A stretch of DNA of 28,804 nucleotides, taken from NCBI GenBank assembly GCA_030612585.1, contig JAUWNP010000038.1:1-28804 (forward strand). The letters are read 5' to 3'. This DNA comes from Anaerolineae bacterium. Its GTDB lineage: Bacteria > Chloroflexota > Anaerolineae > B4-G1. Each line of letters opens with the position of its first letter. Position 1 is the stretch's first letter. Below, in pieces: positions 645-6,731 of this stretch. Position numbers and translations under genes: made by a program. A model generated the notes under the pieces. That model worked only from the letters and a program-made list of their open reading frames with translations, ran no database searches and was not told where the DNA came from.

Positions 645-712
645 TGGAGCGATTTGAGGCTAATCTGATATTGTCAAAGCAGTTACGCTGACAGTATTCC
701 TGGAGGCCGTGT

Positions 713-1576
713 ATGACCAATCGTCGTAAGCGTTTTATCCTGGCAGGCATAGTTGCATTCTTGATAATCGGAATAGGAGTTGTGATGATGTGGCCACTTT
801 TTCTGAAAGTGCTTTCTAGGTTACGCACCTATGATCCATTGCCCGCTTATGCCGAGCCGATCGAGTCGGATGGCAGTTATACTAACGTTGTTTTTCTCCA
901 CCATTCCACCGGTCGCGCTTTGATCGCCGAAGGAAACGTCCGCCCACTACTCACTGAACTGGGCTACCAATTCTGGGATCACGGTTACAATCAGAGCGGG
1001 CTGGTGTCTCCCGACGGAACGGCTACAGGTGCTAGTTATCACATCCCAGGCCTTCGGGGTAGGGGCAATACAGATGTTGACGGTCTGGTTGAACTATTCT
1101 CGCAACCTGTCACGGATCCGCCTTCAAACGCTTTCAGCCGCTTGCTACAGCACGAGGTGATCGCTTTCAAATCCTGTTTTCCCAATAGCGCCATCAAGAG
1201 CGACACCATGCAGGAACAATTCCGAGCCTGGTACCTCGAGATGCGCGACGTGGTGGATGAACACCCCAACCGCGTTTTTATCCTCGTCACCAGCCCACCC
1301 TTGCATCCTCTGGCAACGAACCCAGACGAGGCAGCCCGCGCTCGGGCAATAGCCGATTGGCTCAAGTCGGATGCCTACCTGACAGGACATCCCAACCTCT
1401 TTGTCTTCGACTTCTTTGATCTCCTGGCCGATCCCGAGACCAATATGTTGAGCGCCAGGTATCAACTCGATCCTGACGAGCGAAACTCACACCCCAACCG
1501 ATTGGCCAATGAGACGATTGGCCCACTATTCGTGAGATTCATTGATGATGCAGTGCAAACACACAAACAACCCTGA
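713..1576 (+). CDS. Membrane-anchored SGNH/GDSL-like hydrolase, first gene of the ACP-ligase-amidotransferase operon
   Basis: The protein has 287 residues. The ATG at 713 is preceded by GGAGG at 702-706. A basic N-terminus followed by one hydrophobic segment (about residues 8-26) predicts a signal anchor with the rest outside the membrane. The globular part has the layout of a divergent SGNH fold: strand-ending VVFLHHSTG near residue 62 in the position of the GDS block, a mid-protein FKSCFPNS block, a VTSPPLHP segment, and a C-terminal SHPN where the catalytic His of the family usually lies. The canonical GDSL motif is not literally present, so activity is unproven. The next gene starts 19 bases downstream, and the following genes are an acyl carrier protein and an AMP ligase. 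This recalls the Dlt system, where DltD is a membrane-anchored protein of similar fold. A role in transferring or removing an acyl or aminoacyl group on an exported polymer is inferred. Confidence 0.7.
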   Translation: MTNRRKRFILAGIVAFLIIGIGVVMMWPLFLKVLSRLRTYDPLPAYAEPIESDGSYTNVVFLHHSTGRALIAEGNVRPLLTELGYQFWDHGYNQSGLVSPDGTATGASYHIPGLRGRGNTDVDGLVELFSQPVTDPPSNAFSRLLQHEVIAFKSCFPNSAIKSDTMQEQFRAWYLEMRDVVDEHPNRVFILVTSPPLHPLATNPDEAARARAIADWLKSDAYLTGHPNLFVFDFFDLLADPETNMLSARYQLDPDERNSHPNRLANETIGPLFVRFIDDAVQTHKQP

Positions 1577-1595
1577 CAGTGATGGAGTAAGTTCA

Positions 1596-1841
1596 GTGAC
1601 CATAGAAGAGCAAATCAGACAGTACATTACCGATAACTTCCTGTTCAGCGACGACGGCTACCAATTGTCCGATAGTACTCTGTTCCTGGAAGAAGGCATC
1701 GTAGACTCGACCGGTGTGTTGGAGTTGGTGATGTTTGTTGAAGAGACTTTCAACATCACCGTCGAGAACGAGGAGATCGCGCCGGAGAATTTCGACTCCG
1801 TTGCCCAACTGGCGGCGTACGTCCGCCACAAGAGCGCCTGA
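1596..1841 (+). CDS. Acyl carrier protein-like (phosphopantetheine-binding) protein
   Basis: This small acidic protein has 81 residues if the GTG at 1596 is used. That start has GGAG at 1584-1587 and lies after the stop of the previous gene. A longer ATG start at 1542 would overlap the hydrolase and add an unconserved tail. Helix I (TIEEQIRQYITDNF), the acidic loop, and the GIVDSTGVLELVMFVEETF stretch match the ACP/PCP family. The Ser of DST (residue 38) is at the phosphopantetheine attachment position, although the usual DSL is changed to DST. The C-terminal FDSVAQLAAYV helix also fits. It lies directly before an AMP-forming acyl ligase, so it most likely carries the acyl or aminoacyl group activated by that enzyme. 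It is probably a stand-alone pathway-specific carrier and not the housekeeping fatty-acid ACP, because no fab genes are nearby. Confidence 0.85.
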   Translation: MTIEEQIRQYITDNFLFSDDGYQLSDSTLFLEEGIVDSTGVLELVMFVEETFNITVENEEIAPENFDSVAQLAAYVRHKSA

Positions 1842-1914
1842 TGCGGCGGCGGGCGACGGTTGAAACTAACACCTAACCGAAGCCTCGTAGTGGTAGTACC
1901 AGGGAAGGAGTGAC

Positions 1915-3465
1915 ATGAACGTAACCAAGTATGTTTTTGATAACGATGCACCAGACAACAAGGTGGCGTTGCTGACCTCACAGGGGGATTATACTTACGC
2001 CGATCTCAAGCGTGGGGTTAATCGGGTAGCCAACTACCTGGTGCGCCATGGGGCACGCAAAGGCGATCGAGTGGCCTTAATTGCTGAAGCATCATACTTC
2101 TGGGTGGTCACGTACCTGGGCACAATACGCGCCGGGTGTGTTGCAGTCCCCTTGCCTGTCAATATTGACGTCGAAGAATGTGCCTATATCTTGGGGACTA
2201 CTGAATGCACTTGGGGATTCGTGCAAGGCAAGTATGCCCGAGATTACTTATCGTTGTTTAACAAGGATGTAACACTTGTTGTGAACGAGCCTGAGCGTGT
2301 CCCGACAGACCTGGTACGGAAAACGGTTCAGTTTGCCGACATTCCAGCGCAAACTAGTGTGGATTTTGACGCAGATTCGGTCGAAATTGACGAGCGCAAG
2401 GACTTGGCCGCACTGATGTTCACATCAGGCTCTACCGGCAAGCCTCGCGGGGTGATGGTTTCACACCGTAACATCATTGCAAACACGAACTCCATTGTCG
2501 AGTACCTGGGACTCACCCCTGATGACCGTATTATGGCTGTGTTGCCGTTGTACTACTGCTTCGGTACGTCGTTGCTACATACACACTTGCGTGTAGGCGG
2601 TTCGGTTGTGATCAATACAAGATTTGCCTTCCCCAACAACGTACTCAAGCACATGCAAGAAACTCGCTGCTCCGGCTTTGCTGGTGTACCCAGCACGTAC
2701 CAGATTCTATTGCGTAGATCCAGTTTGAAAAAAATGGAATTCCCCAACCTGCGATATGTGCAGCAGGCAGGAGGAAAACTGCCCGACGTATTCATCGCGG
2801 AACTGCGCGAGGCATTGCCGACTACGCGTGTGTTTGTCATGTACGGTCAGACGGAAGCGACGGCACGGCTTTCGTACTTGCCGCCCGAGATGATGGACGC
2901 GAAGTCTGGATCAATCGGAAAGGGCATCCCTGGCGTCAAACTGGAGGTGCTTGACGACAATGATCAACCAGTTCATCCTGGTGCGATCGGCGAGATCGTT
3001 GCTGCGGGCAATAACATCACCCTGGGATACTGGAAAGCGCCTGAAGAAACGAACCAATCGTTCCGTAATGGCAAATTATACACCGGCGACCTGGCCACGG
3101 TAGACGAAGACGGGTACATTTTTGTAGTAGATCGCGCTAAGGACTTTTTGAAGTGTGGCGGTCAACGGGTGAGTTGCAAGGAAATTGAGGGCAAGGTACT
3201 AAGGTTCGAGGGACTGGTTGAGGCAGCGGTGATCAGTCAGCCCGACGACACGCTGGGTGAGGCAGTGCGGCTGTACGTGGTACATCCGGCTGGTGAAGCC
3301 AAGCGTGCTGAATTCGAGCAGTTTTGCGTGGAGACCCTACCCCACAACCTTGTACCGAGGACGATCATCTTCCGAGATAAGTTGCCCAAGAACACCTCTG
3401 GTAAACTGGACAAGTTCGCGCTCAAGGAAGAATACCGCTACGAATCGAAGAAACTTGTGCGGTGA
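1915..3465 (+). CDS. AMP-forming acyl-CoA/acyl-ACP ligase (ANL superfamily)
   Basis: The protein has 516 residues. The ATG at 1915 is preceded by AAGGAG. All core ANL motifs are visible: TSGSTGKPRGVMVSH (P-loop, about residues 175-189), MYGQTEA (about 309), YTGDL (about 389), DRAKDFLKCGG (hinge) and PKNTSGKLDK near the C-terminus with the catalytic Lys (about 497). It should activate a carboxylate as acyl-AMP and pass it to the phosphopantetheine of the carrier encoded 73 bases upstream, or to CoA. The gene order carrier - ligase - amidotransferase resembles exosortase-associated and Dlt-type clusters, but no exosortase or MBOAT gene is in the window. The substrate cannot be read from the sequence. 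The downstream amidotransferase starts after 26 bases, so the genes are probably co-transcribed. Confidence 0.9.
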   Translation: MNVTKYVFDNDAPDNKVALLTSQGDYTYADLKRGVNRVANYLVRHGARKGDRVALIAEASYFWVVTYLGTIRAGCVAVPLPVNIDVEECAYILGTTECTWGFVQGKYARDYLSLFNKDVTLVVNEPERVPTDLVRKTVQFADIPAQTSVDFDADSVEIDERKDLAALMFTSGSTGKPRGVMVSHRNIIANTNSIVEYLGLTPDDRIMAVLPLYYCFGTSLLHTHLRVGGSVVINTRFAFPNNVLKHMQETRCSGFAGVPSTYQILLRRSSLKKMEFPNLRYVQQAGGKLPDVFIAELREALPTTRVFVMYGQTEATARLSYLPPEMMDAKSGSIGKGIPGVKLEVLDDNDQPVHPGAIGEIVAAGNNITLGYWKAPEETNQSFRNGKLYTGDLATVDEDGYIFVVDRAKDFLKCGGQRVSCKEIEGKVLRFEGLVEAAVISQPDDTLGEAVRLYVVHPAGEAKRAEFEQFCVETLPHNLVPRTIIFRDKLPKNTSGKLDKFALKEEYRYESKKLVR

Positions 3466-3491
3466 CCTGACTTAAGCCCCGAGAGAGCATC

Positions 3492-5483
3492 ATGTGCGGC
3501 ATCGTCGGCATCTATAATCTAACCAGACATCACCCCATTGACCAGATGCTGCTGGAGCGTATGCTGGGCCTGATCCGGCATCGAGGCCCGGACGAGTCTG
3601 GCATCTACTGTGACGGATACATCGGTCTGGGGAACACCCGATTGAGCATCATTGACCTCAACACCGGCTCGCAGCCCATTGCCAACGAGGACAAAACAGT
3701 CTGGATCGTCCTCAACGGCGAGATTTTCAACTACGTCGAACTGCGGCCCGAACTGGAGGCACAGGGCCATCGCTTCACCACCACCTCCGATACCGAGGTC
3801 ATCGTCCACCTTTACGAACAGTATGGGCCGCGTTGTGTGGAGCACCTCAACGGGCAATTCGCCTTTGCCATCTGGGACCGGCGGCCCGAGACCGGTGGCG
3901 GCACGCTGTTTTTGGCCCGCGACCGTGTGGGCATCCGCCCGCTGTTTTACACCGTGGCCGATGGCACGCTGGTCTTCGGCTCTGAGATCAAGGCAGTATT
4001 GGCCCACCCCGCCGTCAGCGCCCGGCTCGATCTGGCCTCGCTGGCCCAGGTGTTCACCTTTTGGACGACACTGGCGCCGCGCACCGTCTTTGAGGGCATC
4101 GTCGAGGTACCGCCGGGGCACACCCTTACCGCCCGCGAGGGACAGATCTCGGTGGAACGCTACTGGGGATTGAGTTTCCCGGAGGATGGGAGTGGGGAAT
4201 CGCTCTCCGACGACGAGTACGCCGAGGGGTTGCGAGAATTGCTGGCGGACGCCACTCAGATCCGCCTGCGGGCCGATGTGCCGGTGGGCGCTTACCTCAG
4301 CGGCGGGCTAGATTCGTCCACCATCACCGCGCTCATTCGCAACTACACCAGTAACTACCTCAAGACGTTCTCCATCGCCTTCGCCGATCCGGCCTTCGAC
4401 GAACGGGAGCACCAGGAGCGCATGGTCGAGTTCCTGGGCACCGACCATCGCCGCGTCGAGTGCACCGATGCCGACGTGGGCCGCGTGTTTCCCGACGTCA
4501 TCTGGCACACCGAATGGCCTATCCTGCGCACCTCTCCCGCACCGATGTTTCTGCTCTCGCAGTTAGTGCACCAGGACGACATCAAAGTAGTGCTCACCGG
4601 CGAGGGTGCCGACGAATTCCTGGGTGGCTACAACATCTTCAAAGAGAGCAAATTGCGTCGCTTCTGGGCACGAGACCCAGACTCCGCAATGCGCCCCTTG
4701 CTGCTGAAGCGGCTCTACCCCTACGTGCCGGGGCTAGGCCAGGGGGGCACATTCCTGGAGGCATTCTTCCGCCGGAGTCTGACCGAGACCGAGCGGCTGG
4801 ACTACTCCCACGCCATCCGCTGGTCCAATACCGCACCGCTGCGGCGATTTTTCTCCCCCGAAGCCCAGGCCGCCCTCAACGGCTACGATCCTGTGCCCGA
4901 AGTTATCACGGCGCTCAAACTCCATCCCGCTTTCGAGCGCTGGATGCCGCTGGCCCAGGCACAGTACATTGAGATCACCATTTTTATGTCACAGTACCTG
5001 CTCTCATCCCAGGGCGACCGGATGTTGGCGGCCCATTCGGTAGAAGGCCGTTTCCCTTTCCTGGATCACCGCGTCATCGAGTTCGCCAGCCACATTCCGC
5101 CCCGCCTCAAGATTCGGGGACTGAACGAAAAGTACATTCTCAAGCGGGCCATGCGGGGGATGTTGCCCAAGTCGGTCTATGCCCGGACCAAGAGACCCTA
5201 CCGCGCGCCGATCCACCGCAGTTTCTTTGGCAACGCTCCCTATGACTACGTGCAAGAGATGCTGTCACCGGAAGCGATCCGTGCGGCGGGCTATTTTCAC
5301 CCCCAGGCCGTGGCCCGGCTGGTCAAAAAGGCCCAGGGCGCGCACTCCCTGAGCGAGCGGGATAACATGGCCCTGGCCGGGATACTCTCTACTCAACTTC
5401 TCCATCACCAATTCGTCGAGGACTTTCCAGGCCGACCCATCCCTGCCATCGCCCCTCTTAAACTCCGCCTCGGCCCCACCTAA
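3492..5483 (+). CDS. asnB: Asparagine synthetase (glutamine-hydrolysing)-like amidotransferase
   Basis: The protein has 663 residues and begins MCGIVGIYN. Cys2 becomes the N-terminal nucleophile of the class II glutaminase domain (about residues 2-210). That domain also shows RHRGPDESG, RLSIIDL, NGEIFNY and SDTEV motifs. The C-terminal synthetase domain has the PP-loop LSGGLDSS (Ser270 onward), LTGEGADEFLGGY and EGRFPFLDHRVIEF. Both half-reactions therefore look intact: glutamine to glutamate plus ammonia, channelled to an AMP-activated carboxylate. The substrate may be aspartate, but proteins of this class in polysaccharide and exosortase-type clusters are annotated as amidotransferases of unknown substrate. 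Its place between an acyl ligase and a NadE-like protein suggests a dedicated role rather than housekeeping asparagine synthesis. The NadE-like gene starts 15 bases after its stop. Confidence 0.88.
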   Translation: MCGIVGIYNLTRHHPIDQMLLERMLGLIRHRGPDESGIYCDGYIGLGNTRLSIIDLNTGSQPIANEDKTVWIVLNGEIFNYVELRPELEAQGHRFTTTSDTEVIVHLYEQYGPRCVEHLNGQFAFAIWDRRPETGGGTLFLARDRVGIRPLFYTVADGTLVFGSEIKAVLAHPAVSARLDLASLAQVFTFWTTLAPRTVFEGIVEVPPGHTLTAREGQISVERYWGLSFPEDGSGESLSDDEYAEGLRELLADATQIRLRADVPVGAYLSGGLDSSTITALIRNYTSNYLKTFSIAFADPAFDEREHQERMVEFLGTDHRRVECTDADVGRVFPDVIWHTEWPILRTSPAPMFLLSQLVHQDDIKVVLTGEGADEFLGGYNIFKESKLRRFWARDPDSAMRPLLLKRLYPYVPGLGQGGTFLEAFFRRSLTETERLDYSHAIRWSNTAPLRRFFSPEAQAALNGYDPVPEVITALKLHPAFERWMPLAQAQYIEITIFMSQYLLSSQGDRMLAAHSVEGRFPFLDHRVIEFASHIPPRLKIRGLNEKYILKRAMRGMLPKSVYARTKRPYRAPIHRSFFGNAPYDYVQEMLSPEAIRAAGYFHPQAVARLVKKAQGAHSLSERDNMALAGILSTQLLHHQFVEDFPGRPIPAIAPLKLRLGPT

Positions 5484-5498
5484 CCAATAGGAGAAACT

Positions 5499-6467
5499 AT
5501 GACTTTCCACAAAGACGTTCTCAAAATAGACCCCGCCGCCGTGACCGAAGAACTGGTCGCCAACCTCCGCCGCGATGTGCACAAGACGCTGCGCCGCTCC
5601 GGGGCGGTAGTGGGCATTAGCGGCGGCGTGGACTCGTCAACGGTGCTGGCCCTCTGCGTCCGCGCCTTTGGCCCTAAGCGGGTCGTTGGTGTGATGATGC
5701 CAGAGAAAGACTCCAGCCGCGACAGCATCGTGCTGGCCCGCAAGGTGGCCAGACAGTTTGATGCCGCAACCGTCGTCGAGGACATGACCGGCACATTGGT
5801 GGGCTTTGGCTGCTATGCCCGCCGGGACGAAGCCATCAAGCGCGTCTTTCCAGAATACGACCCCGGCTACAAGGCCAAGATCACGCTCCCAGGCAACGTA
5901 CTGGACAGCGAGACCCTCAACATCTTCTACCTGACAATCATCACACCGGAGGGCGAGGAGAAATCGAAACGGCTCAATCTGCGCGATTACCTGCAGATCG
6001 TGGCCGCATCCAACTTCAAACAGCGCAGCCGCATGAACATGCTCTATTACCACGCCGAGTCGCGCAATTATGCGGTGGTGGGCACGCCGAACAAAAACGA
6101 GCACGACCAGGGTTTCTTTGTCAAGTGGGGCGATGGGGGCTACGACGTGGCCCCTATCCGGCATCTGTTCAAAACCCAGGTCTACCAACTGGCGGAGTAC
6201 CTGGAGGTGCCACTGGAGATCCGCCGGGCCACGCCGACTACCGACACCTACAGCGCCCACAGTTCTCAGGAAGAATTCTTTTTCCGCCTGCCGTTCGAGA
6301 TGATGGATTTGATCTGGTACGCCCAGGAGCACAACGTGCCCACCGCCGAGGTGGCCCAGGTGATGGGCCTCACTGAGGAACAGGTGCGGCGCGCGTTTAG
6401 CGACCTTGAGCGCAAGCGACGTACAACTGAATATCTGCGCATGGTGCCGATTGGATACGGAAGTTGA
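5499..6467 (+). CDS. NAD synthase-like N-type ATP pyrophosphatase (divergent, ammonia-dependent type)
   Basis: The protein has 322 residues and starts at the ATG at 5499 after AGGAG. The PP-loop SGGVDSS (residues 41-47) and the block VVGTPNKNEHDQGFFVKWGDG followed by DVAPIRHLFKTQVYQLAEYL match NAD synthetase (NadE), which adenylates nicotinate adenine dinucleotide and amidates it. There is no glutaminase domain, so it would need free ammonia or a partner. Where housekeeping NadE has a DLWPGQTDE-type loop, this protein has TPTTDTYSAHSSQEEFFF, and it has an extra segment around residues 100-160. I recall similar NAD-synthase-annotated proteins from surface-polysaccharide loci. With a glutamine amidotransferase, an acyl ligase and a carrier in the same operon, a substrate other than NaAD is quite possible (inference). 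A genuine second NAD synthetase remains the alternative. Confidence 0.8.
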   Translation: MTFHKDVLKIDPAAVTEELVANLRRDVHKTLRRSGAVVGISGGVDSSTVLALCVRAFGPKRVVGVMMPEKDSSRDSIVLARKVARQFDAATVVEDMTGTLVGFGCYARRDEAIKRVFPEYDPGYKAKITLPGNVLDSETLNIFYLTIITPEGEEKSKRLNLRDYLQIVAASNFKQRSRMNMLYYHAESRNYAVVGTPNKNEHDQGFFVKWGDGGYDVAPIRHLFKTQVYQLAEYLEVPLEIRRATPTTDTYSAHSSQEEFFFRLPFEMMDLIWYAQEHNVPTAEVAQVMGLTEEQVRRAFSDLERKRRTTEYLRMVPIGYGS

Positions 6468-6536
6468 GCCGGCCGTCTTTCCCGGCACAGGTACTTAAGT
6501 AGGTAGCCAGAAGTCCCTTTCCCCTTATGGGGGCGG

Positions 6537-6646
6537 GTATCTTCTCAAAAAGCTGGGGCGAAAGTAGGTCGGATTTGCTATCCGACCCTGTGGCGGTTAG
6601 CAAAACCGCCCTACGCTGCCCTTGCCCCAAGGTATTGAGAAGATAC
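6537..6646. repeat. Cruciform-like palindromic element with two inner hairpins
   Basis: GTATCTTCTCAA at 6537-6548 is the exact reverse complement of 6635-6646. Inside lie two perfect hairpins: GGTCGGAT/ATCCGACC (6567-6574 and 6580-6587, loop TTGCT) and GGCGGTT/AACCGCC (6592-6598 and 6604-6610, loop AGCAA). The loops are complementary to each other, and a short GTAGG/CCTAC pairing closes the pair. GGGGC near 6555 can pair with GCCCC near 6624. The layout suits a MITE/REP-type mobile palindrome; a structured leader for the downstream methyltransferase is the alternative. The rest of the 264-base gap holds only a GC-rich stretch and the AAAGGAG site of the next gene. Confidence 0.75.
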
Positions 6647-6731
6647 GGGGCGGGATGTGGCGGGGGCAAATGCGTGGGAGCCCGGCCCGCCCGGCCCAGA
6701 ATATTGAGCAGAATGAAAGGAGTGAAACAAG

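Follow-up and report, generated by a model that had tools for sequence, protein, structure and literature searches.

The window, which is the whole stretch of 28,804 nucleotides analysed here, opens with 712 bases of DNA upstream of a compact operon (Table 1). Its five open reading frames, all on the plus strand, follow in the order SGNH, acyl carrier protein (ACP), ligase, AsnB and NadE-like, with intergenic gaps of 19, 73, 26 and 15 bases; the ORF coordinates confirm the five-gene order, on one strand and with gaps of 15 to 73 bases, that an earlier note had described. Just 5' of the operon, positions 29-553 encode the last part of what is probably a secreted protein; it ends in VYLPIILK and has no Pfam match. 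G+C-rich, repeat-like DNA was noted by eye on either side of the operon (570-640 and 6500-6660). The genes downstream encode a methyltransferase, a histidine kinase, a response regulator, DnaE, two phosphofructokinases and others, whose families give no evident connection to the operon. A scan by family of 20 window ORFs found no glycan gene near the operon, no DltB-type MBOAT and no exosortase, and no transferase was seen near the operon in the window.

Table 1. Genes and signals of the operon, in window coordinates.
Feature	Position	Strand	Remarks
GGAGG, ribosome-binding-site-like	702..706	+	Read from the letters before the ATG at 713 (first gene)
SGNH-fold protein, N-terminally anchored, accessory	713..1576	+	Predicted extracytoplasmic O-acyl transferase or esterase
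Dedicated acyl/aminoacyl carrier protein	1596..1841	+	GTG start; PF00550, 20.9 bits
ANL (AMP-forming) ligase, group II	1915..3465	+	PF00501, 268 bits, plus PF13193; predicted carrier loader
AsnB-type glutamine-dependent amidotransferase	3492..5483	+	TIGR01536, 518 bits; glutaminase Cys2 and PP-loop
NadE-like PP-loop protein, NF002048 subfamily	5499..6467	+	Family-specific substitutions; insertion at about 105-158

The carrier that the earlier note called an ACP matches PF00550 just over the cut-off; as a correction, its closest solved relatives are mostly peptidyl carriers, which rank before fatty-acid ACPs. It has a DST motif, and the D-S site is present in all 33 ACP rows from related gene sets (hereafter cassettes). 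Scores fall under the cut-offs of the DltC family (PRK05087, 30.3 of 68 bits) and of the OlsHI and AmcB families (64.8 of 130 and 45.7 of 80 bits). The amidotransferase far exceeds the TIGR01536 cut-off of 267 bits; it has the MCG start that provides Cys2 and an SGGLDSS PP-loop, and of 32 cassette AsnBs, 30 begin with MCG and all 32 have SGGxDS. TIGR03108 is among its best NCBIfam families, at 474 of 817 bits and thus under the curated cut-off. In three Bacteroidota loci a 291-residue gene lies 3' of AsnB (L048:13290-14165, L059:7641-8516 and L064:13117-13992); the L048 copy, over the TIGR00128 cut-off, is fabD, and the gene may be either a housekeeping one or a malonyl loader for the cassette carrier.

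The fifth protein has an NAD-synthetase fold with the SGGxDS PP-loop, shares many conserved positions with NadE, and scores 468 bits against NF002048 (PRK00876, an NAD(+) synthase subfamily; cut-off 313). NAD and NMN synthetases are closest to it in both fold and sequence (3fiu is an NMN synthetase); GMP synthase and LarE, two related PP-loop enzymes, match the fold as well, at lower Z. Three positions (window numbering) separate 35 NadE-like rows from 35 rows of ordinary NadE: V208 (100%) versus T (97%), Y251 (91%) versus W (94%), and Q257 (97%) versus E (100%), these being positions conserved in the ordinary rows by alignment, with no catalytic role implied. There is in addition an insertion at about 105-158 that comprises a helix plus three strands. 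Automatic annotation labels this gene and its AsnB neighbour as NAD synthetase and asparagine synthetase, respectively. A separate full-length ordinary NadE is clearly present in 8 of 13 cassette genomes checked, partial in 3 and not seen in 2. Because an ordinary NadE coexists with it, and because of its fixed substitutions and insertion, the NadE-like protein is very unlikely to be the housekeeping NAD synthetase, in line with the earlier note.

The first gene's protein gives no Pfam or NCBIfam match, and it belongs by fold to the SGNH/GDSL superfamily. S65, N158 and H260 correspond to the Ser, Asn and His of blocks I, III and V (the block assignment is our own) and are kept in 17 of 17 rows. 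The Asp of the block V DxxH motif is absent, position 257 being A in 7, P in 5, S in 3 and R in 2 of the 17 rows. DltD and AlgJ were not among the structure matches listed for this protein, an absence that excludes nothing.

Linkage of the genes was examined at 16 loci chosen solely by an NF002048 score over the cut-off, and so independent of SGNH: eight from Chloroflexota, two from Bacteroidota, one from Thermoplasmatota and five from the phylum of the Desulfobacterales genome G327, with the centre genomes G001, G007, G006 and G004, reached through SGNH, omitted. In the DNA retrieved for each locus (about 10 kb at most on either side, which is the meaning here of "in the stretch" or "beside"), an ACP is found in 14, a ligase in 13, AsnB in 11 and SGNH in 1 of the 16. 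At ordinary, low-scoring NadE loci from the Chloroflexota scan, which served as controls, ACP, ligase and AsnB were found at none of 21 within about 1.5 kb each side. The genes are thus conserved together in Chloroflexota and beyond, as anticipated. With phyla named after the titles of the loci through which each centre genome was reached, NF002048 is exceeded in 9 of 301 genomes of Chloroflexota (the phylum of G001), 3 of 70 of Bacteroidota (G007), 2 of 77 of Thermoplasmatota (G006), 5 of 79 of the G327 phylum and 1 of 80 of Actinomycetota (G004). One of 14 control genomes, Methanosarcina acetivorans, also lies over this cut-off.

Some gaps in the linkage reflect the sequence at hand: L118 is a 5.3-kb contig on which the ligase is missing for want of sequence, and at L206 (3.9 kb) ACP and ligase are missing likewise. 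The L204 ligase is split across two ORFs, that of L202 lies 6.8 kb distant, and L209 has its ACP and ligase on the opposite strand. L208 has a NadE-like gene, and 11.4 kb of that locus contained no ACP, ligase or AsnB. At 5 of the 16 loci no AsnB was found, and four of these (L119, L202, L205 and L209) keep ACP, ligase and NadE-like genes; therefore two amidations cannot be general. The firmest association is the trio of ACP, ligase and NadE-like genes, with AsnB usual and SGNH occasional. At L152 (4049-7103), which represents a different type of neighbourhood, an AsnB and NadE-like pair follows HPr-kinase-like and NTP_transf_5 genes.

Approached from the other side, genome contigs scanned with the SGNH alignment yielded 211 relatives, of which 80 were kept. 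All five genes share a locus for 8 of these 80 (L002, L010, L018, L048, L049, L054, L059 and L064), and a NadE-like gene lies near SGNH for 11, several other loci running out at contig borders. Among 50 further SGNH-bearing genomes, six exceed the NF002048 cut-off and one more has a split copy; ligase and AsnB are present at all seven of these loci and ACP at six. As for the five-gene set that the earlier note put forward, four members (ACP, ligase, AsnB and NadE-like) stand as a linked set. The SGNH gene, present at a single one of the 16 independent loci, was rejected as a core member, and its product is best read as an accessory to a four-gene core. The protein probably faces outside, where it would have an extracellular role.

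Acyl carrier proteins would be unusual in archaea. Thermoplasmatota bins contain ACP, ligase and NadE-like genes at L189 (7503-10333) and L202 (8706-10956), and L202 has two tandem NadE-like genes within a glycan locus. A search with the L202 ACP returned 12 proteins, unnamed or generically named. The cassette is apparently present in some archaea, with mis-binning of these Thermoplasmatota bins a possibility.

A tree of 33 cassette ligases has two deep groups and two long-branched rows (L153 and L018). Group I (20 sequences, SMb20650 of Sinorhizobium meliloti included) has F(D/G)YGL, with Asp replaced by Gly in 5 rows, and MYG.TE followed mostly by C or T plus (K/R)R. The 11 members of group II (the window, three Chloroflexota and seven Bacteroidota) have (Y/H)YC(F/Y)G.SLLHTH and MYGQTEATARLS; the window ligase, assigned to this group by the tree, has the pocket signature YYCFGTSLLHTH / MYGQTEATARLSYLPP. 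The Asp of motif A4 was considered as proof of an amino-acid cargo and set aside as not general, since 5 of the 20 group I rows have Gly there and all 11 of group II have Cys. The nearest relatives of SMb20650 are NRPS adenylation domains (linear gramicidin synthase, 302 bits; 3wvn, 261), and those of the window ligase are malonyl-CoA synthetase and the same NRPS, at about 220 bits. TIGR03098 is among the best NCBIfam families of the window ligase, under the curated cut-off at 349 of 592 bits; the group I ligase of L010 reaches 498 of 592.

The ligase gene looks to have been exchanged between cassettes. Genome G314 carries at L001 an ACP 81% identical to that of the window and, on another contig (L151), an AsnB 87% and a NadE-like protein 88% identical, together with a group I ligase only 35% identical. 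At L112 (4391-7735) two ligases, one of each group, flank the ACP. In the window itself the G+C content is 52% in the ligase gene as against 62% in AsnB and 60% in NadE-like, a contrast to be read with the caveat that SGNH and ACP share the low value of the ligase (52-53%). On these grounds of identity, gene arrangement and composition, it looks as if the specificity gene of the window has been swapped, perhaps along with its upstream neighbours.

The four genes also occur in named organisms. A close NadE-like gene is present in 116 records of a plasmid collection, Sinorhizobium accounting for 76, and ACP, ligase, AsnB and NadE-like genes are all present in each of the 10 plasmid loci examined. 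One of these is pSymB of S. meliloti, where the gene order is asnB-ACP-ligase-nadE. Since no PF00501 gene other than the operon ligase was found on pSymB of strain 1021, the operon must consist of SMb20650/SMb20651 plus asnB and nadE. Passages of PMC7232532 describe SMb20650 as a pSymB-encoded homologue of FadD, cotranscribed with the ACP SMb20651. They state that coexpression of SMb20650 with holo-SMb20651 in E. coli gave acylated SMb20651 (earlier work, reference 5 there) and that SMb20650 cannot replace FadD, the fadD defect not being complemented. This reference 5 we take to be Ramos-Vega and others 2009, from passages of PMC9386255 and PMC12794305 that cite the ACP paper. As far as those passages of PMC7232532 go, the orthologue loads its own ACP, in agreement with the earlier suggestion that the window enzyme is not an ordinary fatty-acyl-CoA ligase. 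Asparagine and NAD are not mentioned in the main text of PMC7232532; because acylation in E. coli is reported without mention of AsnB or NadE partners, carrier loading may precede amidation or be independent of it. The S. meliloti set is the same four genes; it differs from that of the window in having a group I rather than a group II ligase and no SGNH gene in the stretch.

The surroundings of the plasmid operons vary. Five operons, which come from plasmids of Sinorhizobium, Mesorhizobium, Nitratireductor and Rhizobium, lie away from glycan genes; the operon is 2.5 kb from minCDE in S. meliloti ml59 and adjoins minCDE in Rhizobium sp. ACO-34A. A gene of 360 residues lies beside the operon in four of the five. 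These 360-residue genes have no Pfam match, resemble a GNAT weakly (71% probability against the Azospirillum GNAT, over the first half), and have no match among the neighbours at L111, L002 and L018. In Azospirillum thermophilum the operon is inside a glycan locus with an O-antigen ligase, glycosyltransferases, a deacetylase and a GNAT gene, and the Roseateles copy has glycosyltransferases nearby.

A more general test of context used the neighbours of 21 cassettes (117 proteins of 175 candidates) and, as controls, 117 proteins from 19 regions, drawn from 13 of the 21 cassette genomes; a twentieth region, L187, lay too near a cassette and was dropped. Neighbour ORFs were called longest first by script, a procedure that makes errors in G+C-rich DNA, to the same degree in both sets. 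The cassette neighbours include Polysacc_synt_2 (5), Epimerase (5), Bac_transf (4), MBOAT (4), Acyl_transf_3 (3), GNVR (3), AAA_31 (3, Wzc type), SLBB (3, Wza type) and hexapeptide proteins (3), and among the 25 commonest families of the control proteins none of these reaches 3. Cassette neighbours are thus enriched in exopolysaccharide and envelope-acyltransferase genes relative to controls, with a possible envelope bias in that 14 of the 21 loci were reached via SGNH (9 directly and 5 from SGNH-bearing genomes) and 7 are wholly independent. Three of these seven have acyltransferases or sugar enzymes adjoining the cassette: FemAB and DegT at L111, Acyl_transf_3 and an epimerase at L113, and a hexapeptide protein at L119. 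Overall, the transferases of relatives are of the MBOAT (L048, L059 and L154), Acyl_transf_3, GNAT or FemAB kind. The lack of an MBOAT remarked on earlier holds for the window and, given its presence beside relatives, characterises the window rather than the cassettes in general. For the 351-residue protein that partners the Bacteroidota MBOAT there is neither a Pfam match nor a clear PDB one. BNR_2 matches 6 of the 117 cassette neighbours and fewer than 3 of the control proteins, and a large BNR-repeat protein recurs by Chloroflexota cassettes (L010:2278-4923, L112:10703-13507 and L113:15196-18006).

Several known systems invite comparison. The Dlt system is made up of the DltA ligase, the DltC carrier, the MBOAT protein DltB, and DltD. 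The window shares with it an ANL ligase and a stand-alone carrier, and some relatives add an envelope acyltransferase and an SGNH-type protein; the differences are that the window has no MBOAT, that its carrier falls short of the DltC family, and that AsnB and the NadE-like protein have no Dlt counterpart. The exopolysaccharide module associated with XrtA/PEP-CTERM, with its TIGR03098 ligase and TIGR03108 amidotransferase, offers a related ligase and AsnB-type enzyme in an exopolysaccharide context, whereas the window is under both cut-offs, shows no exosortase and has a NadE-like gene instead. By the tests made, the cassette works like Dlt and the XrtA-linked carrier modules and is a member of neither. 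Cispentacin AmcB/AmcH, a carrier and 2-oxoglutaryl-ACP ligase, resembles it as a carrier with an adenylate-forming ligase for a small dicarboxylate; the window carrier is not of the AmcB family by score, and AmcH matched the ligase of L018 only, under its cut-off. Set against NadE and the NMN synthetase 3fiu, the NadE-like protein keeps fold, PP-loop and many conserved positions and departs in its insertion, its V208/Y251/Q257 and its linkage to a carrier and ligase, and in most genomes checked it is extra to an ordinary NadE. No published description of the gene set was found in literature on the set itself, on the exosortase kind, on S. meliloti pSymB and on OlsH. The Bordetella wbm O-antigen was considered as a precedent and dropped, passages of two papers giving no carrier or NadE-like gene ("acyl carrier" and "NAD" were sought in one).

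We favor, by a slight margin over even odds, a four-gene module for carrier loading and amidation that usually feeds surface-glycan decoration, with the SGNH protein accessory to it. Judging from the S. meliloti orthologue data of others, the ANL ligase would adenylate a small carboxylic or amino acid and load it on the dedicated carrier. From the chemistry of their families, AsnB, drawing ammonia from glutamine, and the NadE-like protein would convert carboxylates of the cargo or acceptor to carboxamides via acyl-adenylates. A locus-specific transferase (MBOAT, Acyl_transf_3, GNAT, FemAB or hexapeptide), as gene neighbourhoods suggest, would then pass the group on to a surface glycan or to a precursor of one. 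In the window the anchored, probably outside-facing SGNH protein is the leading candidate to add an ester-linked group or take it off, and the acceptor there is the least certain step because no glycan gene or transferase is seen nearby. The earlier interpretation in terms of carrier, ligase, amidation and export is supported in part, by the linkage, the altered NadE, loading by the orthologue and the exopolysaccharide loci in which many relatives lie, and neither outcome named there as refuting it has come about; SGNH as part of the core falls away. A more specific form, to which we give somewhat less than an even chance, is that an NAD synthetase paralogue has been neofunctionalised and amidates an acid, borne by the carrier, with which surface polysaccharides are decorated, that ligases and transferases are interchangeable and set the group and its destination, and that the module is widespread in bacteria, and in archaea with a carrier protein of its own if the bins are right.

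A product of another kind, a small amide that is soluble or excreted (signal, osmolyte or metallophore) with the polysaccharide context incidental or a second use, is unlikely though not negligible. It is suggested by the five rhizobial operons that stand apart from glycan genes, two near minCDE and four with the weakly GNAT-like 360-residue gene, and by the closeness of the S. meliloti ligase to NRPS adenylation domains; against it are the enrichment of Wza, Wzc, sugar-transferase and envelope acyltransferase families around cassettes, the location of the Azospirillum and Thermoplasmatota-bin copies within glycan loci, and the glycosyltransferases by the Roseateles copy. Somewhat less probable again is that the NadE-like enzyme makes an amidine, nitrile or substituted amide from an amide or carboxylate rather than a primary amide. 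Such chemistry has precedents among PP-loop enzymes in WbpG (amidine) and QueC (nitrile), AsnB already provides glutamine-dependent amidation, and the fixed changes, the insertion and the lower-Z matches to GMP synthase and LarE would suit it; yet the nearest relatives in fold and sequence are the amide-forming NAD and NMN synthetases, and several loci keep the NadE-like gene where AsnB was not found.

Two further readings concern what the operon belongs to. That it is an exosortase A (XrtA)-associated exopolysaccharide module is quite improbable: TIGR03098 and TIGR03108 are among the best families of its ligase and AsnB, and the L010 ligase comes nearer still, but the window scores stay under both cut-offs, no exosortase is among the ORFs scanned and the described XrtA module is not known to include a NadE-like gene. 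A chance order of an ordinary fatty-acyl-CoA ligase, asparagine synthetase and NAD synthetase, as the automatic names of the last two would have it, has next to nothing left in its favor and is rejected in view of the cross-phylum linkage (0 of 21 controls), the coexisting NadE, the fixed differences and the failure of the orthologue to complement FadD.

Genes named for housekeeping functions would, on the preferred reading of a carrier-loading and amidation module, form a single module common to uncultured lineages, soil bacteria and root-nodule symbionts, whose key enzyme goes under the name of NAD synthetase in automatic annotation. If true, this would be a clear case of an NAD synthetase paralogue leaving NAD metabolism. 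S. meliloti 1021 is a genetic model with a half-characterised ligase-carrier pair, in which surface modification or metabolite chemistry is directly testable. PMC10315480 reports that smb20650 is down-regulated under Myxococcus predation.
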